A stretch of DNA of 64,000 nt from Leptospirales bacterium (GTDB lineage Bacteria; Spirochaetota; Leptospiria; Leptospirales; Leptonemataceae). The notes beneath the pieces were generated by a model. It had not been told where the DNA came from and searched no databases. It saw only the letters and a list, made by a program, of their open reading frames with translations. Position 1 is the first letter of the stretch, and every line of letters begins with the position of its first letter. A program made the position numbers and the translations under genes. Shown here one piece after another: positions 7,094 through 21,612 of the stretch. Where the stretch lies: assembly GCA_019694685.1 (NCBI GenBank), contig JAIBBM010000023.1, forward strand, positions 1 to 64,000, written 5' to 3'.

Positions 7094-7966
7094 TCAGAAA
7101 CTGGTTTCGAACCGAATGTCTGAGGTTTGTTCCACGAAATCGATATTGAAGAACCTGTCACGAATCGTTTGTTGAAATTTGCGTTCCTGAAAAGTGTTGA
7201 ATCTACCTGCGGAAGCAGCAGCGCCTGTGATGTTGGTTAGATAGAAACCCAGACCAAGAATTCCCATGATGATGGAACCGCCATGTCCCGAACGAGCGCG
7301 CGTTTCCAGATGATTCATGTATGCCGCCGATCCGCAAAGTACGCTCGTGAATGCGAAAGCGGTGAGACCATCTGCAACGTTGCGCGAGTAAACCTGACCC
7401 GATCCCGGAAGCAAGGCGGAAAGCCCGGCTGCAAGCCATACGCTTTTGCGCGGGATTTCATTGTAGGTGGTCATGGCTGTGAGCGTTTCGCTTGCGGCGA
7501 TTCTCACTCTTTCATTTTCCGTTTCGCGCTGGAGTTTTTCGAAATGAATTCGGGCACGATCAAAGTCACCGTCTTCCAGGTATAGAGTTCCCGCCAGGAG
7601 TCTCCCCAGATCTTTCTTTGACTCAGGGAGCTTGCTTTCTTCTAGTTCTCCCTGGTCCATGAGAAAGCGATTTCGAAAGTTCGCTCTTAAATCGCCATAC
7701 ATGCGAAAGTACATTATATCAAATGATTTTCCCTGAAGAGATTCAATTGCCTGGCGAAACCTTCTTTCGCGAATTAGAGTCAGGCCAATTTTTGCGCGGA
7801 CTGACTCATTGCTTGAATCGAGTATCGCGCGGTCGTATTCGATTCTGGCCAGTCCGAAGTCTTTCTTTTTGTAGTACGCATCTCCCATTTGTTCGTGACT
7901 TTTCTCAGCGAAGCTTGCAAAGGGTAGAAGAATGAGGCACGCAGTCTGGATCATTCTGCTTTTCAT
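7094..7966 (-). CDS. Exported TPR protein with C-terminal membrane segments
   Basis: The 290-aa product begins MKSRMIQTACLILLPFASFA, a signal peptide. Residues 20-175 contain tetratricopeptide-like repeats (HEQMGDAYYKKKDFGLARIE; LAGTLYLEDGDFDRARIHFE). From about 185 the segment LAAGLSALLPGSGQVYSRN resembles the proline-glycine PGxGQ motif of small membrane proteins often annotated DUF5683, followed by two hydrophobic helices. A scaffold role in the envelope is likely; the partner is unknown. The start at 7966 overlaps the 5' end of the divergent YidD-like gene by 35 bp. A second Met at 7954 is possible. Confidence 0.7.
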   Translation of the reverse strand: MKSRMIQTACLILLPFASFAEKSHEQMGDAYYKKKDFGLARIEYDRAILDSSNESVRAKIGLTLIRERRFRQAIESLQGKSFDIMYFRMYGDLRANFRNRFLMDQGELEESKLPESKKDLGRLLAGTLYLEDGDFDRARIHFEKLQRETENERVRIAASETLTAMTTYNEIPRKSVWLAAGLSALLPGSGQVYSRNVADGLTAFAFTSVLCGSAAYMNHLETRARSGHGGSIIMGILGLGFYLTNITGAAASAGRFNTFQERKFQQTIRDRFFNIDFVEQTSDIRFETSF

Positions 7967-8327
7967 GACAGTTTGCAAATCGGCACAGAGTCCCGCGGCC
8001 GGCGAGGAAAATCCGATCGTGTTTCGTCCTATGCTGTATTTGATTGATCGCCACCGCGAAGAATTCACTCACTATGACGGTCCACGTTGTCCCATGTATC
8101 CTTCGTGTGCGGCCTATGCGGATCGGGCCATTCGCCAGTATGGCTTTCTGGGCGCCCTGATGTTTGCAAACAGGCTTTTCTTCGCGGAGACTGGAGATCT
8201 GGCATCCAAATACGTGCTTGTGCCTCATAGAATGTCTGAAATGCCTCGATACTACGATCCAGTGTCCGATGACATCCTTCCAGGAGAGCACAGGCCGTCT
8301 CTTCTTATGGAAGACTTCTCAGAATAG
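7932..8327 (+). CDS. Secreted YidD-like protein
   Basis: YidD proteins carry a CxxYPxCS-like motif and help membrane protein insertion near YidC. Here CPMYPSCAAYADRAIRQYG (about residues 53-71) fits that motif. The 131-aa protein is longer than classical YidD (about 70-85 aa), and its start MRHAVWIILLFMTVCKSAQS looks like a signal peptide, so it may act outside the cytoplasm. An AGGG about 7 nt before the ATG supports the start. Its first codons overlap the 5' end of the divergent TPR gene. The family call is good; cellular role is inferred. Confidence 0.75.
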   Translation: MRHAVWIILLFMTVCKSAQSPAAGEENPIVFRPMLYLIDRHREEFTHYDGPRCPMYPSCAAYADRAIRQYGFLGALMFANRLFFAETGDLASKYVLVPHRMSEMPRYYDPVSDDILPGEHRPSLLMEDFSE

Positions 8328-8367: not shown

Positions 8368-10284
8368 ATGGGAATACTCAAAACACTGGCTCCGCTTCTG
8401 GACCACCCTGACTACTCGGGCGCCCGCGATCCTTTTTACTTTTCTCGCGCCATTCGTTCTCTGCGTTCCCCTCTGGATTTGCCGGATATGGAGAAGGGAA
8501 TCGCTATGCTTCGATCCGTCATCGAAGCTCAGGGGCATGTTCTTGTTGTGGGAGACAGAGACGTGGACGGCGTGAGTTCTGCCGCACTTCTTGCGAATTT
8601 CCTGCGAGACCAGCATGCGAAAAGAGGAGGCGGACTTGAGATTCGTGTCTCTGATCTGGGAGACGACTACGGATTGTCGGGAGAGCTTTTTGAGAATGTG
8701 CGCGATGGAAAAGCGGACCTCGTGATTTTGCTCGATATGGGTTCTTCACACGGGCCAGAGATTCATGAGCTCATTGCTGCCGGAAAGAAAGTAATTGTTC
8801 TCGATCACCATCAGGTTTCCGATCGCAGGCCTTCGCATGATCTTTGCGCGTTCATCAATCCACAATTGAATGCAGAAGTTCACGAAAATGAAGGCAAGAT
8901 TCCAACCGTCGGCCTTGCTTTTAAGTTTCTATTCGGCTACGCACTTTCTCACATCGCAGAGTGGAACAATCATTCTCTTGTAGATTTGTCGTTTTTGTTT
9001 TCAGAAAATGCGAATGCAGGCGCCAGGTTTGCAGTCTATAGATGCGGATGCCTTGTGGAAAGCGGGGAGAATATTTCTGGAGCACACCTTCGTCCACTCG
9101 ACGCGGATGGAATGGCGTTTCTCAAACACGAACGCGAAAGGATCCTTCAATCTGAAAAACCAGTCGTTACTATTGGTTCTTTGCTTTTGTCGCGCATTGT
9201 GGAAACCCGTCCGCGCCTTCTTGATTTTTTGATGTCTCTATCTGATCTTGTTTCTGTTGGAATGATCACGGATATGGTTCCTCTGGCCGGGGAAAACAGA
9301 TCTCTTGTGCGAATCGGTCTTGGAATGGCAGGAAAAAGAGTGAGGCGCGGAGTTCCTGGTTACAGAGCGCTCATTGGTGCTCTTGATTTGCCAGAGTTTG
9401 ATCTGACAGGTCGGGACCTGGCCTGGTCCATTGGTCCTGCCATCAATGCTGCGGGCAGGATGGGAAACACGGCACTTGCACTGGATTTACTCACCAGCGA
9501 CTCTCCGGTCGAAGCGGAGCGCCTCGCACGTGAGCTCAAAGCACTCAACAAAAAAAGACAGGAGCGCACCAGGTCCAACGAGCGCATCGTGACGGAACAT
9601 TTCGAAGCGTATCCAGAGAAGACAGATCGTCCCATTATATTCTGCTATCATGAAAGCCTGGAGCCGGGTGTTTCTGGAATTATGGCCACAAGGCTTCTTG
9701 AAAAGTACGGCAAGCCTGTAGTCTACATCAACCCGGACGGAAAATGGGCCAAAGGGTCTGCCAGAGGGGAAGGGCATAATGTGCTCCAGATGCTGGATTG
9801 CGCGGCGCATTTGTTCATACAGTTTGGCGGTCATCCGGAAGCGGCCGGTTTTTCTCTTCCCTATGAAAGAATTGAAGAACTGGAAAGAGTTCTACTGGAG
9901 AACGCACCTTTCATGGATCTCGAACCGGTCAGCCTTGAAATCAGGCCGCATCTGGATCTCTTGCCCGAACAAATCAACCGTCGTCTTTATGATGAGCTCA
10001 GACAGATGGAGCCATTCGGCCCCGGCAACCCGGAACCACTCATTCGCATAACGGGTGCGCAGGTGACAGACGTAACTTACATGAAAGACAAACTGCATGC
10101 GCGCTTTCGGATCCGGGGAAGTCGGGACATCGAATTTGTAGCGTGGCGTCGCGGGACGGAGTTCGGCAAGGATATGGAAAGGGTGGATCTTATTGGTTCA
10201 CTGGAGCGGAGCATTTTTGCAGGCAGAACGCGGATTCAGTTCAGAGTGGAACACGTGAAAGCGGCCGCAGTTCTGGTGGCGTGA
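8368..10284 (+). CDS. recJ: Single-stranded-DNA-specific 5'-3' exonuclease RecJ
   Basis: RecJ degrades single-stranded DNA from the 5' end in recombinational and mismatch repair, using Mn2+ or Mg2+. The 638-aa protein has the DHH-family motifs in order: GDRDVDGVSS (about residues 63-72; the usual DYDVDG opens here with Arg), LLDMGSS, and LDHHQ (Asp146-His147-His148). Further on are the DHHA1-type segment SGIMATRLLEKYGKP and the glycine-rich FGGHPEAAGFS. The C-terminal OB-fold region follows (FGPGNPEP onward). Length is slightly above that of E. coli RecJ. It stands alone on the plus strand, convergent with the respiratory operon. Confidence 0.93.
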   Translation: MGILKTLAPLLDHPDYSGARDPFYFSRAIRSLRSPLDLPDMEKGIAMLRSVIEAQGHVLVVGDRDVDGVSSAALLANFLRDQHAKRGGGLEIRVSDLGDDYGLSGELFENVRDGKADLVILLDMGSSHGPEIHELIAAGKKVIVLDHHQVSDRRPSHDLCAFINPQLNAEVHENEGKIPTVGLAFKFLFGYALSHIAEWNNHSLVDLSFLFSENANAGARFAVYRCGCLVESGENISGAHLRPLDADGMAFLKHERERILQSEKPVVTIGSLLLSRIVETRPRLLDFLMSLSDLVSVGMITDMVPLAGENRSLVRIGLGMAGKRVRRGVPGYRALIGALDLPEFDLTGRDLAWSIGPAINAAGRMGNTALALDLLTSDSPVEAERLARELKALNKKRQERTRSNERIVTEHFEAYPEKTDRPIIFCYHESLEPGVSGIMATRLLEKYGKPVVYINPDGKWAKGSARGEGHNVLQMLDCAAHLFIQFGGHPEAAGFSLPYERIEELERVLLENAPFMDLEPVSLEIRPHLDLLPEQINRRLYDELRQMEPFGPGNPEPLIRITGAQVTDVTYMKDKLHARFRIRGSRDIEFVAWRRGTEFGKDMERVDLIGSLERSIFAGRTRIQFRVEHVKAAAVLVA

Positions 10285-10310
10285 TCAGGCGGCGCCAATG
10301 CCGCCTGACG
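10285..10310. terminator. Strong hairpin between convergent recJ and the respiratory operon
   Basis: A perfect 9-bp stem TCAGGCGGC/GCCGCCTGA (10285-10293 with 10300-10308) with a 6-nt loop begins right after the recJ stop and lies 10 nt beyond the last gene of the minus-strand operon. No T-run follows on either strand, so it may act as an RNA-stabilising end or a weak bidirectional terminator. It shares AATGYCGCCTGACG with the hairpin near 4850. Confidence 0.45.
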
Positions 10311-10317
10311 TTGAAAT

Positions 10318-10839
10318 TTACTTCTTGGTAGGAACTGAGTCTTTGATGATGTTCGGGTTCTTGGTCTGCAGGTAGTAGATGACTTCCCACACCTTGGTCA
10401 TGTTGTCCAGAGTCCCCATAGGAGGCATCGCGCCACCCTTCGGGCCTTTGGTTGCTCCTGCAGGAACGCCGCCTTTGATCAGTTTGGCCAGGTTGGTTTC
10501 CTTTGGCTCTTTGAAGTGAAGCCATTCGTTGTCGGCCAGGTTTGGACAGGCAAGACCTTCGAGGTTTGCACCGTGGCAGGCGGCGCACGTTTTATAAGAC
10601 GCCGCTCCATTCGCGATCGCCTGAGGAGTGCGCTCAGGAATGAAATCTTCTGTCACGGCAACAACGGACATTCCCACAGACTCGCGGTATGTGGTTGCGT
10701 TCGTCGCGCCAAGGAAGCCGTGATAGAAGATCGCGTATGCTGTCCCTGCAACAAAAGTAAATGCAATCGCAAAGTAAATCCAGGATAGACCGTGTTTGCT
10801 CGGTCCCTTTTGCTGCGAGGTTGATGAATGTTCGCTCAT
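10318..10839 (-). CDS. CcoP-like membrane-anchored monohaem cytochrome c
   Basis: The 173-aa protein has one N-terminal membrane helix (about residues 18-40; GLSWIYFAIAFTFVAGTAYA) ending in IFYHGFLG, like the anchor of CcoP from cbb3 oxidases. A single c-type haem domain follows, with CAACHG near residue 88 and a probable axial Met in GAMPPMGTL. Normal CcoP has two haems and is about 300 aa, so this is a half-length form. It is the last gene of the operon, 15 nt after the CcoO-like gene. It probably passes electrons at the periplasmic face; its acceptor is unknown. Confidence 0.75.
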   Translation of the reverse strand: MSEHSSTSQQKGPSKHGLSWIYFAIAFTFVAGTAYAIFYHGFLGATNATTYRESVGMSVVAVTEDFIPERTPQAIANGAASYKTCAACHGANLEGLACPNLADNEWLHFKEPKETNLAKLIKGGVPAGATKGPKGGAMPPMGTLDNMTKVWEVIYYLQTKNPNIIKDSVPTKK

Positions 10840-10854
10840 AATTATACCTTAGCC

Positions 10855-11511
10855 TCAGCGATAAAATGCGCCGTTGTATTGCATGCTCTTCTGTCCAAGA
10901 CTCAGAAGATAGGCCACAAGCGCGTCTCCGCGTGTTTGTCCTTCCAGGCGATCGAAAGCACTCTTGTGATATGGATCTGAAAGCGGAACTCCCGCTTCGA
11001 GCATCATGCGAATCTTCCACGAAAGAAACAGCGGCTGGAGATCATCGTCGTTGAACAGATAGCCGTAAGCATGATAGCGATTGCGCAGGTTGTCCTCTTT
11101 CCCACCGCGTAGCAGGGAAGTCAGGCCAGCCGCATCCTGTTTGCCAGCAACACGCGAAAGATCTGGACCAATTCTGAAACTTCCTCGCATAGCAGGTGTT
11201 TCATGCGAATATTCCATTGCAGTTGGAACCGGATAGTAGCCGTACTTTTCAACGTTCACATAGCGTGACACTTCCCAGCCAAATGGTCTGAGATTCTGAG
11301 AATGGCAATACTGGCAGCCTTCCTGGTAGTACACTTCATGGCCTTTGAGAACCAGAGTGTCTTCTGTGCTCAATTGCGAGAGAGAGCCATGAGAAATGTT
11401 TTCGCTGAAAGGCAGGCACACTGCGATCCCATACCCAACGATCACAATGGCGATCGAAGATAGTACAGTGCTCAGTGGACTGGAGAAAAGCTTTTCGTAA
11501 ATGCGGGACAT
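10855..11511 (-). CDS. CcoO-like membrane-anchored monohaem cytochrome c
   Basis: The 218-aa protein resembles CcoO of cbb3 oxidases. It has an N-terminal membrane anchor (residues 12-33), then EVYYQEGCQYCHSQNLRPFG with the haem motif CQYCH, and then the CcoO hallmark block around MRGSFRIGPDLSRVAGK, which supplies the likely axial Met. The remaining third diverges from CcoO. Its start overlaps the CcoN-like stop by one base (11511), the order N-O-P found in cbb3 operons. As the CcoN partner lacks cofactor ligands, electrons are unlikely to end there. Confidence 0.8.
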   Translation of the reverse strand: MSRIYEKLFSSPLSTVLSSIAIVIVGYGIAVCLPFSENISHGSLSQLSTEDTLVLKGHEVYYQEGCQYCHSQNLRPFGWEVSRYVNVEKYGYYPVPTAMEYSHETPAMRGSFRIGPDLSRVAGKQDAAGLTSLLRGGKEDNLRNRYHAYGYLFNDDDLQPLFLSWKIRMMLEAGVPLSDPYHKSAFDRLEGQTRGDALVAYLLSLGQKSMQYNGAFYR

Positions 11512-12968
11512 CAGCGTGCCTCCTCTGGATTTTCTTCATCCGGAAGGTGAAGATCTGCTTCCTGGAATGGGTTTCCCTGGCCTCTCCAGATCGACAGCAT
11601 GCTGAGCGCCCAGGTGGCGAGGCTCACTGTGACGGATGCGTAACCCAGGAAGTAGATTCCACGGAGTCCAAGAATGAATTTCAAAGTGGGGGATGCAGTG
11701 TCTCCTGCAACATTGCCTGCAAACAGGAGTGCAGAAAAGGAAGTCACTGCCGGGCCGGCTTCTGTCATCGCGCGGGCAGACATGCCGCCCAGGATTCCCT
11801 GCACTGTGCCTGCCACGATCATCAGGCAGCTTCCTACTACTGCAAGAAGTAGTGCGGCACTGGCCAGTGTGTTTGCCGCGGCCTTCTGATTGAATCTCTG
11901 TGAATAGCCATACGCCAGGCCAGCGAATACTACAGATGCAGCAACGAGTGCATCCTGTGAAATATCGCGGGAGTTCCACCAGGTGTATCCTACATCCGCT
12001 TGCATGAAGCGCGGAAGAGAAATGGCTCGAAGAATGGCCAGAATCAAAATGAATCGCACACCCCATACAAGATAGGATCCGTCCAGATTGGACCAGACTC
12101 TGCTTGGTCCGCGCGAAACTGTATAGAGCAGGTTGGCGGCTCCCATGATCACTGCAAAGTTCAGTGCAATTCCGCATACAATTCCAAACGTCGCTGACAT
12201 TTGCGGGCCCGCGCCATAAGCCAGGTAGGCTGCGCCAGAGAGTGGAATGAGTGCGAGCATCGCCAGCGCCTGGAAACGCACCGCGCCTTCATTGTAGATA
12301 GGAAGCTTGTAGTGAGTAGGAATGAAATGATACAGGAGACCAAACGCCGGGAAAAGAACGAAGTATCCGAGCACGCTGATTCTGTAGAATTCCTGCACTG
12401 CCTGATCTTTCATTCCAGCTGTAAGCGGCACCTCACCCATTGGACTGTAGGGCAGGGCCAGATTTCCAAGCATGAAGCTGATCGCTCCGCCCGCCGCTCC
12501 GGCGAGGATGAAGAGAACAGGGGCATTCAATTCTTTTTTCAAAGATCGCAACGCCACTGCAATGAAGAAGACGAGAGATAGAAAGAACAGATGATCAGAA
12601 ACCCAGTTCATCTCTCCGTATTCTCTACCTTTGTTTGCTCCCAGGAGAATGCCAATTACTCCAAGAAGCAGACCCAGTTGCTGCAGTCCAAAGCCTGCGA
12701 GCGCCAGTGGTTGCCAGGCAAGATCGCCTGACTTCTGCATTACATAGTAAGAACCGGCCAGAGAGAGATTCACAATTCCGCCAAAGATCAGAGAAGTTGT
12801 GAAAAGTGGGCGGATCACTCCGTATCCCAGAACGTCTGGCTGCGGCCAGCCAAGCATGAGCTGGAGCTGGTTGAGCAGACCAAATACAATTGCAATCAAA
12901 GTCCAGATCACACCTGCGCCGAGGTGAAACGAAAGGACTTTTCTAAAATCAGATGTAAGCTTAATCAT
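11511..12968 (-). CDS. CcoN-like haem-copper oxidase subunit I homologue lacking all cofactor ligands
   Basis: The 485-aa polytopic protein aligns by eye with cbb3 subunit I: GYGVIRPLFTTS against the low-spin haem region RPLHT; YRISVLGYF against the YGHNAVGFF region; PIYNEGAVRFQALAML then SGAAYLAY against PVYSYRLSIVHFWAL and AGPHHLHY; and WWNSRDISQDAL against the GHVH helix. At the six histidine positions that bind haem b, haem b3 and CuB it has Phe56, Ile197, Ala247, Tyr248, Asp335 and Ser337. Only six histidines remain in the whole protein, none at those places. It therefore should not reduce oxygen. Start 12968 overlaps the previous stop (ATGA). About 12 membrane helices are expected. Role is inferred as structural, supporting the CcoO/CcoP-like cytochromes. 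Confidence 0.8.
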   Translation of the reverse strand: MIKLTSDFRKVLSFHLGAGVIWTLIAIVFGLLNQLQLMLGWPQPDVLGYGVIRPLFTTSLIFGGIVNLSLAGSYYVMQKSGDLAWQPLALAGFGLQQLGLLLGVIGILLGANKGREYGEMNWVSDHLFFLSLVFFIAVALRSLKKELNAPVLFILAGAAGGAISFMLGNLALPYSPMGEVPLTAGMKDQAVQEFYRISVLGYFVLFPAFGLLYHFIPTHYKLPIYNEGAVRFQALAMLALIPLSGAAYLAYGAGPQMSATFGIVCGIALNFAVIMGAANLLYTVSRGPSRVWSNLDGSYLVWGVRFILILAILRAISLPRFMQADVGYTWWNSRDISQDALVAASVVFAGLAYGYSQRFNQKAAANTLASAALLLAVVGSCLMIVAGTVQGILGGMSARAMTEAGPAVTSFSALLFAGNVAGDTASPTLKFILGLRGIYFLGYASVTVSLATWALSMLSIWRGQGNPFQEADLHLPDEENPEEAR

Positions 12969-13840
12969 TGCGCCATACCTCGAATGAAGTCGCTGAGTGC
13001 GCTCCACTGAGCATCTGTGAAGCTGTCGAAATTGTTCAGAAGAAGACTGCCGCTACCGTGAGCCGACTTGAGGCCGCCAGCGCTTGTTGAGCCGGAGCTT
13101 GCCAGATCGCGAGTGCTGATCGTCGCGCGAGTCTTCTTGAAGCCGTAGAAATCATTCTTGGAAGCAATCAGTCCCATTCCAAATGTAAGATTGCGTCCTT
13201 CGCCATAGATGCCGTGGCAGCTTTCGCAGTTGTTCTTGTAGAGGCTTGCACCTTCACCGTTATGCGGTCTTGCTTTGCGCTCATCGCTCACAGCCCCTGG
13301 TCCACCCTCAGGCTTGAGATCTGCGATTTTGACGAGCTCTGCCAGGTCCGGAGCTTTTTCGCGCTGGTCCAGAGGCTGGAAGCCCATGTTCCATCTGCGA
13401 GTCTTCGCGTACGCGTCGCGCGCTTCTGTCATGCCAGCTTCTATGTTCTTGCGCTGCACGTCTGCTTTTTCGCCAGCGAGCGGCTTCTTCAGAGAATAGA
13501 GGAAATGTGCGAGTGCCCAGCGACCTTTGTCTGTCAGAGACTGGTAGGCGTGGTTTTTGACTTTGTCTGTGCCGACTGTGATTGCTTTGAAATAAGAAGT
13601 TGGAGTCTTTTCAGGTCCGACCGCAGAAGTGAAATTTGGAACTGGTACTCCAAGTGACTCTGCATCCGGGCCCTTACCATCCCAGGCATTTCCATGACAA
13701 TTCTTACAGTTTTCCTGCGAATACATCACGGAACCCAGGAAGATCTGGTCTTGCGAAGATTCGTAGACCGGCGGTGTTTTCTGGCCGCAGCCAATCAGAA
13801 AAAGTGCGATGGCTGCGGGAGTAATGATCAACGATTTCAA
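12965..13840 (-). CDS. Dihaem cytochrome c lipoprotein
   Basis: This 291-aa protein starts at a TTG preceded by GAGGG at 7 nt, giving a lipoprotein signal peptide LKSLIITPAAIALFLIGC with the lipidated Cys at 18. An upstream ATG at 13873 would add 11 residues and overlap actF by 22 bp. Two c-type haem motifs are present, CKNCHG and CESCHG, each heading a cytochrome c domain of about 100 residues. It likely carries electrons in the periplasm from ActE/ActA toward the CcoO/CcoP-like cytochromes. Its stop overlaps the next start as ATGA, so expression is coupled to the CcoN-like subunit. Confidence 0.82.
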   Translation of the reverse strand: MKSLIITPAAIALFLIGCGQKTPPVYESSQDQIFLGSVMYSQENCKNCHGNAWDGKGPDAESLGVPVPNFTSAVGPEKTPTSYFKAITVGTDKVKNHAYQSLTDKGRWALAHFLYSLKKPLAGEKADVQRKNIEAGMTEARDAYAKTRRWNMGFQPLDQREKAPDLAELVKIADLKPEGGPGAVSDERKARPHNGEGASLYKNNCESCHGIYGEGRNLTFGMGLIASKNDFYGFKKTRATISTRDLASSGSTSAGGLKSAHGSGSLLLNNFDSFTDAQWSALSDFIRGMAQ

Positions 13841-13851
13841 TGTGATACCCT

Positions 13852-15135
13852 CTATTGATGCCAGTGCAGGCATTCTTCCAGTCTTGGATCGCCTTTGGGC
13901 ACAAGAGACTTACGGCTGAGTGACCAGGCCGTAACTAGAATGAAGCTTCCCGCAACGAGTGATATGGTTCCGAGTTCGCGAAGATCGAACATGACGAAGT
14001 CTCCGTTCGCAAGGGTTGGGTAAGTGACCCAGTACATATCAATCACCTGGCCCAGAAGCACAATGCATGCGCCAATGCCCAGATGTTTGATGTTGCGTTT
14101 TGCTTTGCGCTGGATGATGAAGAAGAAAGGAATCACGAAGCGCACCAGAATCAACAGCAGGCTGACAATGGCCCATGGTTGGAATCCGATCTCTGGAGTG
14201 TAGATTCTCTTTCTGTAGAAGATGGTTTCTTCTGGAATGTGTGCATACCAGATGAGTAGGTACTGACAGATCATCACGTATGCCCAGAAGATCGAATGTC
14301 CCCACATGTATTTGCCCATGTCATGGTAGTGGTTTTCATTCAATGCATCTCCGAAATAGCCGGAGCTCTTGAGATACCAGATCCACAGAATGAGAGATGA
14401 GAAAGCAGTGAGTGCAAGTCCTGCGAAGCAGTAAGGGCCCCACATTGTGGAAAACCAGTGTGGTTCGAGACTCATGGTCAGATCCCACGCGCTTGCAGAG
14501 TAAGTGAGTGCAAAAAGAATTACAAATACCGCTGACCATTTCGCAAGAGATCTGGTGTGTTCAACCTGTCCGTCTGTGTCCTGGTCAGTTGATTTCTTCC
14601 AGAGCACAAATCCAAATCCAAGCCACAACAACACGAATGCGAAGTTACGCGTTACAAAGAATCCAGGGTTGAGCCAGGGTCTTTTGACCTGGAGTAAGTG
14701 GTCCGCAATGTCTGCATGACCGCCCTCTGTTGTTAGCATCCAGTGGCTGTATACATTCTTCATTCCAAAGAAGACTGCAGCCATCAGAGCGAGAACCACG
14801 AGAAGGTATGGAAAGTAGCTTTCCGCGATGCGGCGAATGGTAACGCACCACGCAGCACCCGCTAGATGATTGAAAGCGACAAAATAGAGTCCGCCCAGAC
14901 CGAGCGGCAATGCGACCAGAAGCGCAAGCAGCAGAGACATGAACAATCTGGGATTTCCAGCTGCGTGTTCCCCTGCGGCGGCGTGTCCTTCCGCCACTTC
15001 TGCTACGGGCGGATGCCATGGGAAAGCAATCTGGTATGCGAGAGTCGCAAGACCAAACGCGATCAACGCCATACAGACGATCTTGAGTTTTGGTGAGAGC
15101 TGAAAATTCAGCGCTTTTTCTTCAGGAAGTTTCAT
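13852..15135 (-). CDS. actF: Alternative complex III subunit ActF (NrfD-like quinol subunit 2)
   Basis: ActF is a membrane subunit related to NrfD/PsrC in alternative complex III, which oxidises quinol and reduces a c-type cytochrome or oxidase. The 427-aa protein shows about ten membrane helices. Recognisable family stretches are GLGGLYFVAFNHLAGAAW, GAAWCVTIRRIAESYFPY and WGHSIFWAYVMICQYLLIWY. It starts 1 nt after the actE stop. Length is typical. It is one of two NrfD-like subunits (with ActC) flanking the complex. Confidence 0.88.
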   Translation of the reverse strand: MKLPEEKALNFQLSPKLKIVCMALIAFGLATLAYQIAFPWHPPVAEVAEGHAAAGEHAAGNPRLFMSLLLALLVALPLGLGGLYFVAFNHLAGAAWCVTIRRIAESYFPYLLVVLALMAAVFFGMKNVYSHWMLTTEGGHADIADHLLQVKRPWLNPGFFVTRNFAFVLLWLGFGFVLWKKSTDQDTDGQVEHTRSLAKWSAVFVILFALTYSASAWDLTMSLEPHWFSTMWGPYCFAGLALTAFSSLILWIWYLKSSGYFGDALNENHYHDMGKYMWGHSIFWAYVMICQYLLIWYAHIPEETIFYRKRIYTPEIGFQPWAIVSLLLILVRFVIPFFFIIQRKAKRNIKHLGIGACIVLLGQVIDMYWVTYPTLANGDFVMFDLRELGTISLVAGSFILVTAWSLSRKSLVPKGDPRLEECLHWHQ

Positions 15136-15136
15136 A

Positions 15137-15784
15137 TTACTTTGCCCCCTTCTTCTGGAGGAGCCTTACGTAGTGTACAATTGCCCAGCGGTCTGCCGGA
15201 CGAATGGGAGCAGCATATGGAAGCATGTTACCGCGTCCCATTGTGATCATGTGGAAGATTTTTCCGTCCTGCCAGCCTGCTGACTGACCTGTGATCAGGT
15301 TGGGAGGCTGGATCATGCGAGGGATTACAGTTCCATCGCCCTGACCGCCCATTCCATGGCAGACAGCGCAATAGGTTTCAAAACGATCTTTTCCTCTTTC
15401 GAGTACAGTCTGCGTGAGAGGAAGAGGATTCTTCAGATTTGCGCCTGCCAGATCGATCTCGGCCTGTTCGTATGGATATGGTTCATATCCGCGGGGCACG
15501 GTTCCTTCCGGGGGCACACGCATCGAACTTCCAGGTCCGCCCCAGACTTCATTCTGGTCTGCGCCCTTGAAGAGTGCCTGCTTTACATTTTCCAGAGTCG
15601 TTGTGTCTTCTCTCTGCGCTCGCACCATCGAGGTGTCGTGCATGTCCAGGAAATAATGAAGACCAGAAACGTTGCTATGATAACGTCCGCCGGTGACAAT
15701 GATGATCACGGTCCAGAACACCGCCATGAACGCTGCGGCAACGATCCAGCGGGTAATGAGTGCCTTTTTTTCTTCCTGCGTCAT
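15137..15784 (-). CDS. actE: Alternative complex III subunit ActE (monohaem cytochrome c)
   Basis: ActE is the monohaem cytochrome of alternative complex III. The 215-aa protein has one N-terminal membrane segment (about residues 13-31, AAFMAVFWTVIIIVTGGRYH) and a cytochrome c domain with CAVCHGMGGQGDG. A likely axial Met lies in GRGNMLPYAAPIRPADRW. The middle region with MRVPPEGTVPRGYEPYPY is typical for the subunit. It sits 8 nt after actD and 1 nt before actF in the usual act order. Confidence 0.9.
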   Translation of the reverse strand: MTQEEKKALITRWIVAAAFMAVFWTVIIIVTGGRYHSNVSGLHYFLDMHDTSMVRAQREDTTTLENVKQALFKGADQNEVWGGPGSSMRVPPEGTVPRGYEPYPYEQAEIDLAGANLKNPLPLTQTVLERGKDRFETYCAVCHGMGGQGDGTVIPRMIQPPNLITGQSAGWQDGKIFHMITMGRGNMLPYAAPIRPADRWAIVHYVRLLQKKGAK

Positions 15785-15792
15785 ACGATTCC

Positions 15793-16464
15793 TCAGAATG
15801 GTTTCTTCTCATCCACCGCAGTTACAGATGCTGCTCCGATGGAAGAAAGGAATGACTTAACGTCTTCCTCCGCATAACCGGCAGAATGCGCGGGAATCCA
15901 GAGTGCGAACTTGTCATTAGTGATTTCTTTGTGCAGAGGCTTACGAAATGGCCGGGGCAGTTTGCTCAGAAGGAGCAGGGTGGCCGCGGTGCATTGTCCG
16001 CCAAACAGAACTGTCAGTTCGAAGCAAATCGGAACCATGGCCGGCCAGCTGAACGTTGGTTTGCCGCCGATGTTGAGAGGATAGGAGTTCATGTAAGGAA
16101 TCGTTGAAATCTGCTCATGAACGCCGAACTGCAGGAAAAAAGCAGTCAATGTTCCGCACATTCCCATGAAGAATGTAACATACGGAATCTTGGAACGCTT
16201 CAGTCCCATATCGAATTCAAGTCCGTGTACTGGAAACGGAGTGAAGCAGTCAAAGCCAGTGTAACCTTTTTCGTGCGCAGCTTTGGCCGCTTTCTTGATC
16301 TTCTCCGGTGTATCAAATAATCCAAAAACACCTTTGCGTGTTTCGTTGTACTGATACTCGAACAGTCGATCCAGAGTATTGTGCAGTTTTGGAAGAATGG
16401 CCCCGAACACACGGTCCAGGATTCCTTCCAGTGGTTGAAAGAGACGATCGATGGTTGCCAGCAT
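15793..16464 (-). CDS. actD: Alternative complex III subunit ActD (DUF3341)
   Basis: ActD is a small membrane subunit with two helices, of the DUF3341 family. The 223-aa sequence contains GVFGLFDTPEKIKKAAKAAH, then the family stretch DCFTPFPVHGLEF, a helix after YVTFFMGMCG, and a second helix over PICFELTVLFGGQCTAATLL. About 40 extra residues precede the usual start (MLATIDRLFQPLEGIL); they look amphipathic. The gene starts 2 nt after actC stops. Its job in the complex is structural in known ACIII. Confidence 0.88.
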   Translation of the reverse strand: MLATIDRLFQPLEGILDRVFGAILPKLHNTLDRLFEYQYNETRKGVFGLFDTPEKIKKAAKAAHEKGYTGFDCFTPFPVHGLEFDMGLKRSKIPYVTFFMGMCGTLTAFFLQFGVHEQISTIPYMNSYPLNIGGKPTFSWPAMVPICFELTVLFGGQCTAATLLLLSKLPRPFRKPLHKEITNDKFALWIPAHSAGYAEEDVKSFLSSIGAASVTAVDEKKPF

Positions 16465-16466
16465 AA

Positions 16467-17864
16467 TCAGTGTCCAAATCCTTTCGCGTCAGGCGATTTG
16501 ATAGTCGCTTTGATTTCAGCGATTGCAATTGCCGGGAAGAAGCGAGTGAACAGTAAGAAGAATGTGAAGAACATTCCAAATGATCCAATCAGGATCAAGT
16601 AGTCGTGGATGGTCGGGATGAACATGTCCCAGCTAGAAGGAAGGTAATCTCTGTGCAGAGAAGTCACGATGATCACCCAGCGTTCGAACCACATACCAAT
16701 GTTTACGAAGATAGAAATGATCCACAGAGCCACCGGATTTGTGCGAATCGCACGGAACCAGAACAGCTGTGGTGAAATCACGTTGCAGGAAATCATGATC
16801 CAGTAGGACCACCAGTACGGACCAAATGCGCGGTTGATGAAAGTGAATCCTTCAAATTGAGATCCACCATACCATGCGATGAAGAATTCAGTTCCGTAGG
16901 CAAGACCCACGAGAGAGCCCGTGAGCGTTACGATCTTCGCCATGTTTTCGAGGTGTTTGATTGTGATGTATTCAGTGAGGCGGAACACTTCGCGCATGAT
17001 GATGAGCAGAGTGAGAACCATGCCGAATCCAGAGAATACTGCACCCAGAACGAAGTAAGGAGGGAAGATCGTCGCATGCCATCCAGGGATGACTGAGGTT
17101 GCAAAGTCGAAGGAAACGATGGAGTGTACGGAGAATACGAGAGGCATGGACAATCCTGCAAGGATCATCGAAGTTGCTTCGTAGTGGCTCCACGCTCTTG
17201 CAGATCCAACCCATCCAAATGAAAGGATAGAGTAGACCACCTTGCGCACTTTCTGACCTGTTGTGCTTGCGTCGATTCTGTCGCGAATGGACGCGAAGTC
17301 AGGAACCAGACCAATGTACCAGAACACGAGAGATGTAATGAAGTAAGTAGAAATCGCAAATTCGTCCCAGGCGAGAGGGGAGCGGAAGTTTGGCCAGAGA
17401 ACGCCGCGTTCGTTTGGAATTGGAAGGCCCCAGAAGATGACCCAGGTACGTCCTACGTGCAGCAGAATGAAAGAAGCGGCCGTCATCACAGAGAAGATCG
17501 TCATTGCTTCTGCGGAGCGGTTGATCCCTGTTCTCCACTGCTGGCGGAATACAAACAGAATCGCAGAAATCAGAGTTCCTGCGTGTCCAATCCCAATCCA
17601 GAAAACGAAGTTGATGATGAACGTTCCCCATCCAACCGGGACGTTGACGCCCACAAGACCCATGCCCTGTGCAATCGTGTTTCCTGCTTCAAACAAATAC
17701 ATGAGGAACACGCAGAGCGAAACGCCAAAGGCAATGTTCCAGAGTTTTGTTGGAAACGATTCAACTGGACGAGTGATGTCCGTGTTCGCGTTGGAATATG
17801 TTTTGCCACCCTGAACTAATTCGGGGTGCAGGTAGTGTAAGTCTTCTTTGGTTAGCGTCGCCAT
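16467..17864 (-). CDS. actC: Alternative complex III subunit ActC (NrfD-like quinol-binding subunit)
   Basis: ActC is the larger NrfD-family membrane subunit and carries the quinol site facing the ActB iron-sulphur domain. The 465-aa protein has about ten membrane helices. Landmarks are FWIGIGHAGTLISAILFVFR, QQWRTGINRSAEAMTIFSVM and ISTYFITSLVFWYIGLVPDF. I place the start at 17864 (MATLTKEDLHYLHPELVQGG), 1 nt after the actB stop; a longer reading would overlap actB by 47 bp. Length is normal. Confidence 0.92.
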   Translation of the reverse strand: MATLTKEDLHYLHPELVQGGKTYSNANTDITRPVESFPTKLWNIAFGVSLCVFLMYLFEAGNTIAQGMGLVGVNVPVGWGTFIINFVFWIGIGHAGTLISAILFVFRQQWRTGINRSAEAMTIFSVMTAASFILLHVGRTWVIFWGLPIPNERGVLWPNFRSPLAWDEFAISTYFITSLVFWYIGLVPDFASIRDRIDASTTGQKVRKVVYSILSFGWVGSARAWSHYEATSMILAGLSMPLVFSVHSIVSFDFATSVIPGWHATIFPPYFVLGAVFSGFGMVLTLLIIMREVFRLTEYITIKHLENMAKIVTLTGSLVGLAYGTEFFIAWYGGSQFEGFTFINRAFGPYWWSYWIMISCNVISPQLFWFRAIRTNPVALWIISIFVNIGMWFERWVIIVTSLHRDYLPSSWDMFIPTIHDYLILIGSFGMFFTFFLLFTRFFPAIAIAEIKATIKSPDAKGFGH

Positions 17865-17865
17865 A

Positions 17866-20800
17866 TCAAGCCTTGTTCCTGATTTTTGCCAGATAAGTAA
17901 TCGAAGGGCCAACTCCGATGAAATCGAGCACCTTGTATCCGCGCTTGTCGGCCAGATGCTTTGAAACTTCGCTGTTTGGATCGTTCTTGTCGCCGAATGA
18001 AATTGCCTTTGTAGGGCAAACTTCCTGGCAGGCAGTGATGACTGTTCCGTCTGCGATTCTTTTGTCCCCGCGTGCGCGAGATTCCTGGCGAGCAGTGCTG
18101 ATTCTCTGAATGCAGAATGTGCACTTCTCCATTACACCGCGAGAGCGAACTGTTACGTCCGGGTTCATCGCAAGTTGCTGCGGGTCTCTCAGGTGACGGC
18201 GAACGCCTTCCATCCAGATCCAGTTTTCGAACCAGTTGAATCTACGAACTTTGTAAGGGCAGTTGTTGGAGCAGTAGCGAGTTCCAATGCAACGGTTGTA
18301 GGTCATCGTGTTGAGACCTTCTTCCGTGTGAGTGGTTGCGGCTACCGGACATACGTTTTCGCATGGTGCGCTGTCGCAATGCTGGCACATCATGGGCTGG
18401 TGGGCCACTTCTGGAGAGTTTTCGTCTCCTGAATAATAGCGGTCAATTCGCAGCCAGTGCATTTCGCGGCCGCGTGCCACTTCTTCTGGACCAACCATGG
18501 GAATGTTGTTTTCGCTGTTGCAGCTTGTAACGCAGGCGCCGCAGCCAGTGCAGGCTGTAAGGTCGATCGCCATGTTCCACTTGGTTCCGTTGTAAGCCCA
18601 TTCCTTCATGAGGCGAGCAGCCTCTTCTTTTTTGGAAGGATCTTTGCCAGGGTAATCCACACCTTCTGGTTTGAATTCGCCTGGTTTTTCGATGTATTCT
18701 TTGAGAGTAGCTTCGCGAATGATCGGACGTCCATTCTGGCTTGCGCCTGCCATAGGGGCTCCAGGGAGACCTTCCGGTGCGAAGAATGCTTTGTCTTCTG
18801 TGTTGAACCCGTTGCGATATACAGACTGAGTGTTAGGCAGCTTGTAACGATCTCCAGTTGGTTCAATGTCTACTTTGATTCCGCTGTATGCAATGGAATC
18901 AGATCCAGGAGATACCAGAGCGATTGCGTTTTTGCCCTGACCATTTCCAGTCAGGCCCGCGTCTGTTCTTCCGTAACCCAGTGCAATGAACACTGCTTCT
19001 GGATGAAGTCCAGGCTGAAGATGAACTGGAAGTTCAAAACTTCCCTTCGCAGTTTTTACAGTTACTACTGAACCTTGTTTGAGTTTCAGTTTGCGTCCTG
19101 TATCGGGGAGAATCGCAACGTAGTTTTCCCAGACCACTTTTGTAACTGGATCTGGAAGTTCCTGGCGATAGGAGTTGTTTGCACCTGATCCGTCTAGAAC
19201 CTGAACGTTGTAGTAAAGACCCAGTTTGAATCCAGAAGTTTTCTCAGGCTGAGTGATTTGGGAGAGGGAACCAGCATTGAAATTGCGTGCGCCGCGATCT
19301 CGTCCCAGATCCGCAGCACCTGGAGCAAAGTAACCAGTTTGAAGAGAAGATTGCCAGAACTTGCGGAAGTCTCCGCGTGCACGGCCTTCCCACTGAGATT
19401 TCATGTATTGATGAAACGTTGAGGCGCCTTTGATGGATCCACCAGCGATGGCGATGAGGTAGTCTTCTGCGGACTTTGTTGCCCAGAGAGGACGAATCAC
19501 AGGCTGCTGGATGGAATAAACACCGGGAAGAAGTTCTGCATCTCCCCAGCTTTCCAGGTAATGATTCACAGGCAGAACTGCCTGCGTGCATTTTGCAGTT
19601 TCATCAATTCTGTCTTGAATCGCAGCAGAATATGGAACTTTCTTCAATGCTTCCGCAAACTTGTAAGACTCTGGCAGATGATAGACAGGATTTGCGCCAA
19701 TCACGATGACGGACTGCACTTTGCCTGAATTCATCTGCTGAATGAGGTCCTGGATTTCTCTATCCGTTGCACCCGGATCGAGCTGCAATGCTGCAACGTG
19801 ATCCACAGTCTTTCCGTCATTTCCAAGCATGGAGTTGAGGAGGTTCACTGCGATGGCAAGAGAAGCATTGCTTCCAGTGGCCGCAAGAGGGGAGCCGCCG
19901 ATTACGAGGCTACTTCCGCGAACTTCTGAGAGTTCTTTTGCAATTCTTTCGAGAGACTCTTGCATCTTGCTCGCCTGTTCTGGAGATGCAGCAAGAGAGC
20001 TTGCGACTTTCGCAGGCAGATATTTTTCAAGTGCGCCTGATCCGCCTGGAGCGTTGACTCCCAGTTTGATGGCGAGTTGCGCTGCAATAGAAAGTGCAAC
20101 GACTACCTGGTCGCCCGGACGAATCGCAATGCGTTCGTCTGCGTTGGATCCAGTGGTGCTGAACATACTTTCGATCGCAACGAGTCTGCTCATTGTTTTT
20201 TGTCCGCGGCGAAGCTCGCGCCCTTTCGCAAACAGAGAAGTGAAGTGAGCAGGTTGAATCATTGTGCCCAGGAAATCGCCGTCGATGGATAGAATGTAAT
20301 CTGCCTTGTCGAAGCGATAGTCAGGGATGACTTGTTTTCCGTAGGAAGCCTGGGAACCTTCTGCGATCTGGCGAAGAGTTGGATCCGGACGGAAAGTGAG
20401 TTGTCTTCCACCGGGGAACTGCGCCATGAAATCGCGAACAATGGATCTGGTAGCAGGACTGATGGTCGGGGCAGTCAGAAGAACATAGTCTCCTTTGCCC
20501 AGGTTTGTTTTGATTTCAGTGATCAGTAGTTCTGCTGCAACGTTGCGTTTCTTTCCGTCTTTGATGCGCACTGCTTTGCGAAGACGATCTGGATCATACA
20601 GATCCATAATGGATGCAACATCCGATGCAGTCAGACCGCCCTGATTGACAGGGTGATCCGCGTTGCCTGCGAGTTTGATAGGGCGACCTTCGCGTGTGCG
20701 AACGATCATTCCGCTTCCGCTTGGAGCAACTGTGGAATAGAAGACTGGAATGCCAGGAACAATCTCAGGCGGCTGGATTACAGCAGGAACAATTTGCTCC

Positions 20801-21018
20801 GTTGGACGGCGGCATGCCGCCTGCGCCATCACAGCACCTGCGCCCATCACCTTGAGAAAAGTCTTGCGGCTTACTTTGAGAGTTTCCGCTTCCTCGAGCA
20901 TGTCCTTTCTATCCTGAGTGAATTCAGGCTTTTCATAGATTGCAAACGACTGGGGTTGCGTACGCTCTTCCAGTGTTTGCCAGTAGTGCTTTTGTTTATT
21001 TTCCGTCGTCTGACTCAT
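17866..21018 (-). CDS. actB: Alternative complex III subunit ActB (molybdopterin-like domain fused to ferredoxin domain)
   Basis: ActB is the large periplasmic iron-sulphur subunit. The 1050-aa chain begins with a Tat-like signal (SRKTFLKVMGAGAVMAQAAC), followed by a molybdopterin-oxidoreductase-like domain of about 700 residues that in known ACIII binds no molybdenum. From about 815 comes an FeS-cluster domain: CTGCGACVTSC, CQHCDSAPCENVCP, CIGTRYCSNNCPYKVRRFNW and CTFCIQRI ... CQEVCP. These fit four clusters; the third motif's CIGTRYC spacing fits the known [3Fe-4S] site. It follows actA by 15 nt. Length and fusion are typical. Confidence 0.92.
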   Translation of the reverse strand: MSQTTENKQKHYWQTLEERTQPQSFAIYEKPEFTQDRKDMLEEAETLKVSRKTFLKVMGAGAVMAQAACRRPTEQIVPAVIQPPEIVPGIPVFYSTVAPSGSGMIVRTREGRPIKLAGNADHPVNQGGLTASDVASIMDLYDPDRLRKAVRIKDGKKRNVAAELLITEIKTNLGKGDYVLLTAPTISPATRSIVRDFMAQFPGGRQLTFRPDPTLRQIAEGSQASYGKQVIPDYRFDKADYILSIDGDFLGTMIQPAHFTSLFAKGRELRRGQKTMSRLVAIESMFSTTGSNADERIAIRPGDQVVVALSIAAQLAIKLGVNAPGGSGALEKYLPAKVASSLAASPEQASKMQESLERIAKELSEVRGSSLVIGGSPLAATGSNASLAIAVNLLNSMLGNDGKTVDHVAALQLDPGATDREIQDLIQQMNSGKVQSVIVIGANPVYHLPESYKFAEALKKVPYSAAIQDRIDETAKCTQAVLPVNHYLESWGDAELLPGVYSIQQPVIRPLWATKSAEDYLIAIAGGSIKGASTFHQYMKSQWEGRARGDFRKFWQSSLQTGYFAPGAADLGRDRGARNFNAGSLSQITQPEKTSGFKLGLYYNVQVLDGSGANNSYRQELPDPVTKVVWENYVAILPDTGRKLKLKQGSVVTVKTAKGSFELPVHLQPGLHPEAVFIALGYGRTDAGLTGNGQGKNAIALVSPGSDSIAYSGIKVDIEPTGDRYKLPNTQSVYRNGFNTEDKAFFAPEGLPGAPMAGASQNGRPIIREATLKEYIEKPGEFKPEGVDYPGKDPSKKEEAARLMKEWAYNGTKWNMAIDLTACTGCGACVTSCNSENNIPMVGPEEVARGREMHWLRIDRYYSGDENSPEVAHQPMMCQHCDSAPCENVCPVAATTHTEEGLNTMTYNRCIGTRYCSNNCPYKVRRFNWFENWIWMEGVRRHLRDPQQLAMNPDVTVRSRGVMEKCTFCIQRISTARQESRARGDKRIADGTVITACQEVCPTKAISFGDKNDPNSEVSKHLADKRGYKVLDFIGVGPSITYLAKIRNKA

Positions 21019-21033: not shown

Positions 21034-21612
21034 TTAGTAGTGGCAGGTACTGCACTCTGTGATTTTCACATCGTGATTGTTCCCTGGTGGGTGTTCCTGG
21101 ACTGCATTGTCACGGTGGCACTTGATGCACCAGCCCATGTTGAACTTGGTTGTGACCTGAATCTTATCCATCTCTTCGACTTTCAGCCCTCTTGTATCAT
21201 CTCCGTGGCACTGGTTGCAGTCGAAACCGCGCGCAATGTGAGGCCTGTGGCTGAAACGGACGTGGTCAGGGAGGTCGTGTACTTTCACCCAGCGAATGGG
21301 TACGCCCTGCTTGTAAGTCTGGCGTAGATACTGAATGTTCGGGCTGTCCGACGCGACCACGGAATGACACTTCATGCAAGTTCCCTGATCCGGGACAGTG
21401 GCGTGAGCTGAAACCTCAACACCGGAATGGCAGTACTGGCAGCTGATCTTCAGCTCCCCTGCGTGAATCTTGTGGCTAAACGGAATGGGCTGGTCGGGAG
21501 CATACCCCTGATACTTCGCATCTGCGGCAAAGAGATAAGCGATGCCGCTGATGAGGGAGATGATTACGAACAGCTTAACGCCGTGTTTTTGGAAAATTCG
21601 AATGAGAGACAT
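21034..21612 (-). CDS. actA: Alternative complex III subunit ActA (pentahaem cytochrome c)
   Basis: ActA is the multihaem cytochrome that heads act operons. The 192-aa protein has an N-terminal membrane anchor (residues 10-28) and five CxxCH motifs: CQYCH, CMKCH, CNQCH, CIKCH and CSTCH at the extreme C-terminus. Extra histidines (PFSHKIHAG, RFSHRPHIARG) are the probable second axial ligands. It is first in a ten-gene minus-strand operon reaching 10318. A TTGACA hexamer upstream (21691-21686) is a possible promoter element. Confidence 0.9.
   Translation of the reverse strand: MSLIRIFQKHGVKLFVIISLISGIAYLFAADAKYQGYAPDQPIPFSHKIHAGELKISCQYCHSGVEVSAHATVPDQGTCMKCHSVVASDSPNIQYLRQTYKQGVPIRWVKVHDLPDHVRFSHRPHIARGFDCNQCHGDDTRGLKVEEMDKIQVTTKFNMGWCIKCHRDNAVQEHPPGNNHDVKITECSTCHY

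Follow-up and report, generated by a model that had tools for sequence, protein, structure and literature searches.

A putative pseudo-oxidase related to cbb3 oxidase subunit I in the ACIII operon of a Leptospirales family

Organization of the locus

The DNA considered in this study, hereafter the window, is a stretch of 64,000 nucleotides from the genome of a Leptospirales bacterium (contig JAIBBM010000023.1). Its minus strand carries an operon in which ActA, ActB, ActC, ActD, ActE and ActF are followed by a cytochrome c and by CcoN*, CcoO* and CcoP* (Table 1), where the name CcoN* stands for a family of 20 orthologues, the window protein among them, collected in alignment A1. The PF11821 match to ActD and the ActABCDEF order together satisfy the requirements for membership of alternative complex III (ACIII). 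CcoN* shares 4 bases at its start with the end of the upstream cytochrome c gene, and 1 base at its stop with the start of CcoO*. The same neighbours, in the same order, surround CcoN* in 19 other loci as far as the contigs reach; the contig of locus L043 begins at CcoN*, and the Act genes are not linked there. Summing the haem motifs of the cytochrome c subunits (5+1+2+1+1), the operon of the window encodes ten c-haem motifs, while six haems are given for canonical ACIII in the literature (PMC5928083).

Beyond CcoP*, a gene for a RecJ-like DHH nuclease converges on the operon; in many of the loci read, it is found at the corresponding position. A short YidD-like protein is also encoded on the plus strand, by an ORF overlapping another one on the opposite strand (7094-8068).

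Table 1. Features of the window discussed in the text
Feature	Coordinates	Strand	Basis and remarks
ActA-like penta-haem cytochrome c	21034..21612	-	Five CXXCH in translation; synteny
ActB-like, molybdopterin-enzyme-like plus iron-sulphur subunit	17866..21018	-	Profile matches
ActC-like NrfD/PsrC-type membrane subunit	16467..17912	-	Pfam NrfD, 72.7 bits
ActD, ACIII marker subunit	15793..16464	-	Pfam PF11821, 178.3 bits
ActE-like mono-haem cytochrome c	15137..15784	-	Pfam Cytochrome_CBB3; operon position
ActF-like ACIII membrane subunit	13852..15135	-	No Pfam match; named by position and size
Di-haem cytochrome c	12965..13873	-	302 aa; two CXXCH; adjoins CcoN* upstream
CcoN*, predicted cofactor-free homologue of cbb3 oxidase subunit I	11511..12968	-	485 aa; ORF intact
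CcoO*, CcoO/FixO-like mono-haem cytochrome c	10855..11511	-	218 aa; Pfam FixO, 74.1 bits
CcoP*, CcoP-like mono-haem cytochrome c	10318..10839	-	173 aa; CXXCH and MPxxG Met kept
RecJ-like DHH nuclease	8368..10284	+	
Short YidD-like protein	7932..8327	+	Pfam YidD, 28.7 bits (cut-off, 27)

Homology and predicted fold of CcoN*

A preliminary description of this DNA, in which the ACIII operon is not mentioned, had recognized a CcoN homologue in the CcoN* ORF, and this homology is borne out by Pfam COX1, by TIGR00780, by the solved CcoN sequences and by the overlay of the folds. In particular, CcoN* scores 83.4 bits against Pfam COX1 (cut-off, 34.8), which assigns it by homology to the haem-copper oxidase superfamily, and 89.7 bits against TIGR00780 (ccoN), far below the 583-bit equivalog cut-off, so that the latter criterion is not met. 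The window sequence alone matches five distinct solved CcoN sequences with E values from 6.8e-22 to 1.2e-14 (9g6b_A, 6.8e-22; 3mk7_A, 6.7e-21), and the family profile matches the same five with E values from 9.9e-40 to 6.8e-32.

The AlphaFold2 model obtained from A1 (pLDDT, 82.6; pTM, 0.86) presents 12 long helices, which we took as transmembrane, and the best seven matches retrieved with it by Foldseek are all CcoN. Furthermore, VIA-align superimposed the model on 8smr_E over 440 residues, with a Z score of 44.5 and an rmsd of 2.4 A; in the resulting ranking, the top five places go to CcoN chains (Z, 42.2 to 44.5), followed by nitric oxide reductase (37.4).

Loss of the cofactor ligands

When the window protein is aligned by MAFFT with 15 ordinary CcoN, it has Phe56, Ile197, Ala247, Tyr248, Asp335 and Ser337 in the six columns of the haem and CuB ligands; these are the very residues that the by-eye alignment of the preliminary description had placed there. 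Each of these columns holds His in 15/15 ordinary CcoN and in none of the 20 CcoN* (at column 56, a letter is present in 19 of the 20 rows, the L043 sequence being partial). Since an initial inspection had preceded the selection of these 15 ordinary CcoN, 23 further rows, corresponding to weaker matches of the genome searches, were read as a check. Among them, 21 are full ordinary CcoN, all with the six His and the Glu discussed below, and the two partial CcoN pieces of genome G244 show His wherever they cover a ligand column and Gln at the Glu323 column; L025 and L035, which lie outside the 15 aligned sequences, were read in this check, and both have the six His. Overall, the six His occur in 36/36 full ordinary CcoN.

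The loss extends to two other positions, which are numbered as in Pseudomonas stutzeri CcoN by counting along the alignment to solved CcoN. The column of Tyr251, which we take to be the active-site tyrosine in helix VII, holds Tyr in 35 of the 36 ordinary CcoN (Phe in L149) and in no CcoN* (0/20), and the column of Glu323, presumably the proton-path glutamate, holds Glu in all 36 full ordinary CcoN and again in 0/20 CcoN*. The six histidines normally define the haem-copper oxidase fold, and the six-His criterion for a haem-copper oxidase as an enzyme is thus not met by CcoN*.

Histidines supplied from other positions would have refuted the proposal of a cofactor-free protein. When all the columns of the 20 CcoN* were searched, none was found with His, Cys, Met or Lys in at least 60% of the rows, and it follows that CcoN* has no conserved substitute ligand of these kinds, while its fold is that of CcoN. 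The retention of the fold, and hence perhaps of a cavity, still leaves room for a CcoN* that binds haem via unusual ligands and passes electrons, but no direct evidence speaks for it; besides the missing column just described, the Arg column at window position 51 (Arg in 15/15 CcoN) does not figure among the charged columns conserved in CcoN*, and we regard this explanation as very improbable. The claim that the protein kept its fold and lost haem and copper is therefore supported by the ligand columns, by the family-wide search for substitutes and by the fold comparison. The best explanation, on computational grounds, is that CcoN* is a pseudo-oxidase: neither of the haem sites is left, nor is the copper site, the active-site Tyr and the proton-path Glu are gone as well, but the 12-helix fold has been kept.

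Distribution and phylogeny

Within a single family of Leptospirales, probably the Leptonemataceae, CcoN* occurs in 20 of 22 genomes; membership of the family is taken from the grouping of the genome set. When 48 genomes of the class were searched with A1, the 20 of this family scored 414 to 631 bits and the rest at most 195 bits; the same 20 only were recovered among 392 Spirochaetota genomes, none of the others exceeding 195 bits, with at most four candidates scored per genome. In the two family genomes without CcoN* (G011 and G019), the contigs carrying ActD end inside ActF, and the absence is thus uninformative.

ActD is present in 48 of the 61 genomes searched. Outside the family and within the class, 11 ACIII loci were read (L109 to L116 and L119 to L121), two of which (L113 and L119) end in ActF; in the nine running past ActF, which belong to other families, CcoN*, CcoO* and CcoP* were not matched at an E value of 1e-4. 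In one of the 11 loci (L115), the added cytochrome c is matched with 27 bits upstream of ActA. Two ACIII loci outside the class were also read, with a CoxA match after ActF in one (L118) and none in the other (L117).

As for genome contigs beyond the phylum, a first pattern scan retrieved no stretch, and a degenerate-pattern scan retrieved 22, 10 of which are relatives; the titles are Spirochaetia, Spirochaetaceae, Leptospiraceae or Leptospirales, with a single exception that reads "bacterium". A scan of plasmids returned 348 records, all below 60% identity, whose annotation, where present in the 20 listed rows, is ccoN. Taken together, these scans cover DNA outside Spirochaetota only thinly.

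In the phylogenetic tree, CcoN* forms a single clade with support of 100/100, apart from the 15 ordinary CcoN (96/90). The tree comprises 19 CcoN* rows, the partial L043 having been dropped, and only two outgroup rows, and its branches are long, so that we do not claim an ancient split: a single origin of CcoN* is supported, and its age is not.

Conservation and selection

CcoN* evolves fast compared with the Act subunits, and in 16 of 19 loci no other protein of the operon has a lower identity to its window counterpart (the ranking omits an ActC value at L041 that is spurious). This rate is what a decaying relict without function could display. However, the orthologues are open and syntenic in 20 genomes of 12 genera (L043 starting at a contig end), the lone TAA flagged in two rows is the terminal stop, and the dN/dS values of 0.03 to 0.18, obtained from six pairs, indicate purifying selection, even though dS exceeds 1 in all six pairs and the ratios are consequently rough. 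A relict is hence hardly credible. Chance, a pseudogene and an error of sequencing or assembly were likewise rejected, in view of the open syntenic orthologues and of the low dN/dS.

The residues that stay invariant in CcoN*, such as R115, E119, N169, P173, G185, D188 and Y195, lie, in the model, mostly at the periplasmic side or near it, with R115, E119, N169, D188 and Y195 at that side. This periplasmic bias of conservation is reached by 10 of 464 circular shifts in CcoN* and by 1 of 464 in ordinary CcoN; since ordinary CcoN shows the same bias, it may only be inherited, and alone it is no proof of docking.

The preliminary description had also envisaged recruitment as a proton subunit. CcoN* could indeed be a proton- or ion-translocating or a quinone-binding subunit of ACIII, in which the oxidase fold would be reused for energy conversion: it is a 12-helix protein encoded in the operon of a complex for which proton pumping is proposed (PMC5928083), and the haem b3 ligand column holds Asp in 16 of the 20 CcoN*. 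Nevertheless, the middle third and the cytoplasmic third of the helices together count 34 conserved polar sites in CcoN versus 5 in CcoN*, and the Glu at the Glu323 column is gone, which disfavours this role and does not exclude it. In the same helix thirds, the conserved nonpolar sites also fall, from 69 in CcoN to 21 in CcoN*, so that much of the polar loss reflects general divergence; it is proportionally larger than the nonpolar loss, but not by much, and the CcoN* rows are more divergent overall. Moreover, no conserved mid-membrane charge is present in either CcoN* or CcoN. The loss of polar sites is thus weak evidence against a proton path, and this nonpolar control led us to lower slightly our confidence in a scaffold role and to raise slightly that in a proton-, ion- or quinone-related subunit, which remains less likely, although not excluded, and in our opinion improbable.

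CcoO*, CcoP* and the added cytochrome c

CcoO* meets the criterion of a FixO domain with a CXXCH motif, its FixO score exceeding the cut-off of 29.6 bits and the CXXCH being present in 20/20 rows. The criterion of a distal Met in an MPxY motif, which we assume to be the distal haem ligand of CcoO, is not met. In its place, His147 is invariant in the 20 CcoO*, one residue past the usual position of the distal Met, and on this basis a bis-His ligation of the CcoO* haem is predicted from the alignment alone. With His instead of Met as distal residue, a haem would have a lower potential, an effect that we infer for CcoO*. The structure model of CcoO* (pLDDT, 62.5) is too poor to judge whether His147 reaches the haem. 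Among 12 ordinary CcoO (L028, being a CcoO*, was excluded), 11 have the Met of MPxY, and the twelfth, which lies beside the second ordinary CcoN of genome G007, has His. In that genome (L125, 8061-8759 on the minus strand and 8851-10314 on the plus strand), the second ordinary CcoN, with its six His, is divergent from the CcoO gene, and the His replaces the distal Met at the same position.

As regards CcoP*, CXXCH is found in 18/18 rows, two CcoP* falling beyond the contig ends, and the xMPxxG motif, read off the alignment, retains its Met in the same 18 rows. At an E value of 0.01, no FixP_N domain was reported for CcoP*, and the ordinary CcoP of the same genome scores 37.9 bits. For the cytochrome c encoded just before CcoN*, 5 of 19 rows (L040, L044, L046, L047 and L048) show a single CXXCH, and there the second domain seems to have been lost; L045 is perhaps a sixth such row, as its first motif may precede its start.

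Respiratory context

Elsewhere in the genome of the window, we could identify a caa3 operon, whose CoxB bears haem c, and an ordinary cbb3 operon (ccoNOP) on another contig. The genome also has a third gene of the COX1 family, of unsettled oxidase type, which adjoins a cytochrome c gene with two CXXCH. No match to the cytochrome b family PF13631 was found in this genome, the assembly of which is 93% complete, and ACIII is therefore likely its sole quinol:cytochrome c reductase. Among the 22 genomes of the family, PF13631 matches occur in 5 and are missing in 17; strong matches lie on contigs C305, C602 and C494 of G009.

Enzyme homologues that have lost their activity can take on the role of assembly factors. 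CcoN* might accordingly be conceived as an assembly or maturation platform, to which CcoO* and CcoP* or subunits of ACIII would be bound during biogenesis only, or which would help in the assembly of the ordinary oxidases, cbb3 or caa3. However, CcoN* travels with ACIII and not with cbb3, the ordinary ccoNOP lying on a different contig, and one genome (G012, 91% complete) has CcoN* and no second CcoN match. We hold this possibility to be unlikely.

Proposed role of CcoN*

We are inclined, with somewhat better than even confidence, to interpret the locus as an ACIII-linked oxidase module that has lost catalysis, in which CcoN* is the cofactor-free membrane scaffold of an extended haem-c wire. 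A scaffold is the most likely job that can be inferred for CcoN*. The anchoring of CcoO- and CcoP-like cytochromes had already been suggested in the preliminary description; the strict operon and the intact CXXCH motifs are consistent with it, whereas the anchoring itself remains an inference. Indeed, the evidence for a complex of ACIII with CcoN*, CcoO* and CcoP* consists only of the operon and its synteny, without biochemical or structural support.

It is possible to hypothesize that CcoN* provides CcoO* and CcoP* with a docking site in the membrane beside ACIII and that electrons from menaquinol would run through ActB, ActA, ActE or the added cytochrome c, CcoO* and CcoP*, the haem of CcoO* being predicted as bis-His and that of CcoP* as His/Met. 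From CcoP*, they might reach a soluble carrier or the separately encoded caa3 and cbb3 oxidases, CcoN* being bypassed. Oxygen-reductase clusters frequently come directly after ACIII gene clusters (PMC5928083), and ACIII-oxidase supercomplexes exist (PMC5928083, PMC8552683). The occurrence of CcoN*, CcoO* and CcoP* where an oxidase is expected suggests an ACIII partner of this type, and the history that we infer would be that of an oxidase which worked in partnership with ACIII and then ceased to be catalytic itself. For the more specific proposal of an ACIII permanently joined to a dead cbb3 module, whose cofactor-free oxidase fold would be the membrane scaffold of an extended all-c-haem wire with a bis-His CcoO, in place of the usual ACIII-oxidase contact, we consider the case evenly balanced.

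Neither a ligand-less CcoN nor a CcoN*-bearing ACIII operon is described in the titles and abstract openings among the matches listed in the open literature, subscription journals being mostly uncovered. If our interpretation is correct, CcoN* would represent a clade-wide, fold-only scaffold derived from subunit I, that is, a pseudoenzyme of the haem-copper oxidase superfamily, and the hand-over of electrons from ACIII to its partners would become directly testable. With regard to annotation, a COX1 or CcoN match is not proof of an oxygen reductase, and counts based on such matches would overstate the terminal oxidases of these genomes.

Comparison with known systems

CcoN, the subunit I of cbb3 (C-type) oxidases, is like CcoN* in its fold and shares 22 to 25% identity with it in the solved representatives; E119, D188 and Y195 are examples of invariant residues common to both, and the N-O-P gene order is common to ordinary cbb3 and to CcoN*O*P*. 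CcoN* differs from CcoN in being devoid of the six haem and CuB histidines, of the active-site Tyr and of the Glu at the Glu323 column.

The ACIII-(c)aa3 supercomplexes of Rhodothermus and Flavobacterium, as presented in PMC5928083, share with the window the ActABCDEF order and an oxidase-type module located directly downstream. Different from these systems, the downstream module of the window has no catalytic centre, the real oxidases being encoded elsewhere, and CcoO- and CcoP-like cytochromes and another cytochrome c have been added. Finally, the same source describes ActF of ACIII as a PsrC homologue with no cofactor nearby and with the quinol-site residues missing (PMC5928083). To that extent, ActF provides a precedent, within ACIII itself, for a membrane subunit of a redox enzyme retained without its active site, as proposed here for CcoN*, although ActF belongs to the NrfD/PsrC family and not to the haem-copper oxidases.
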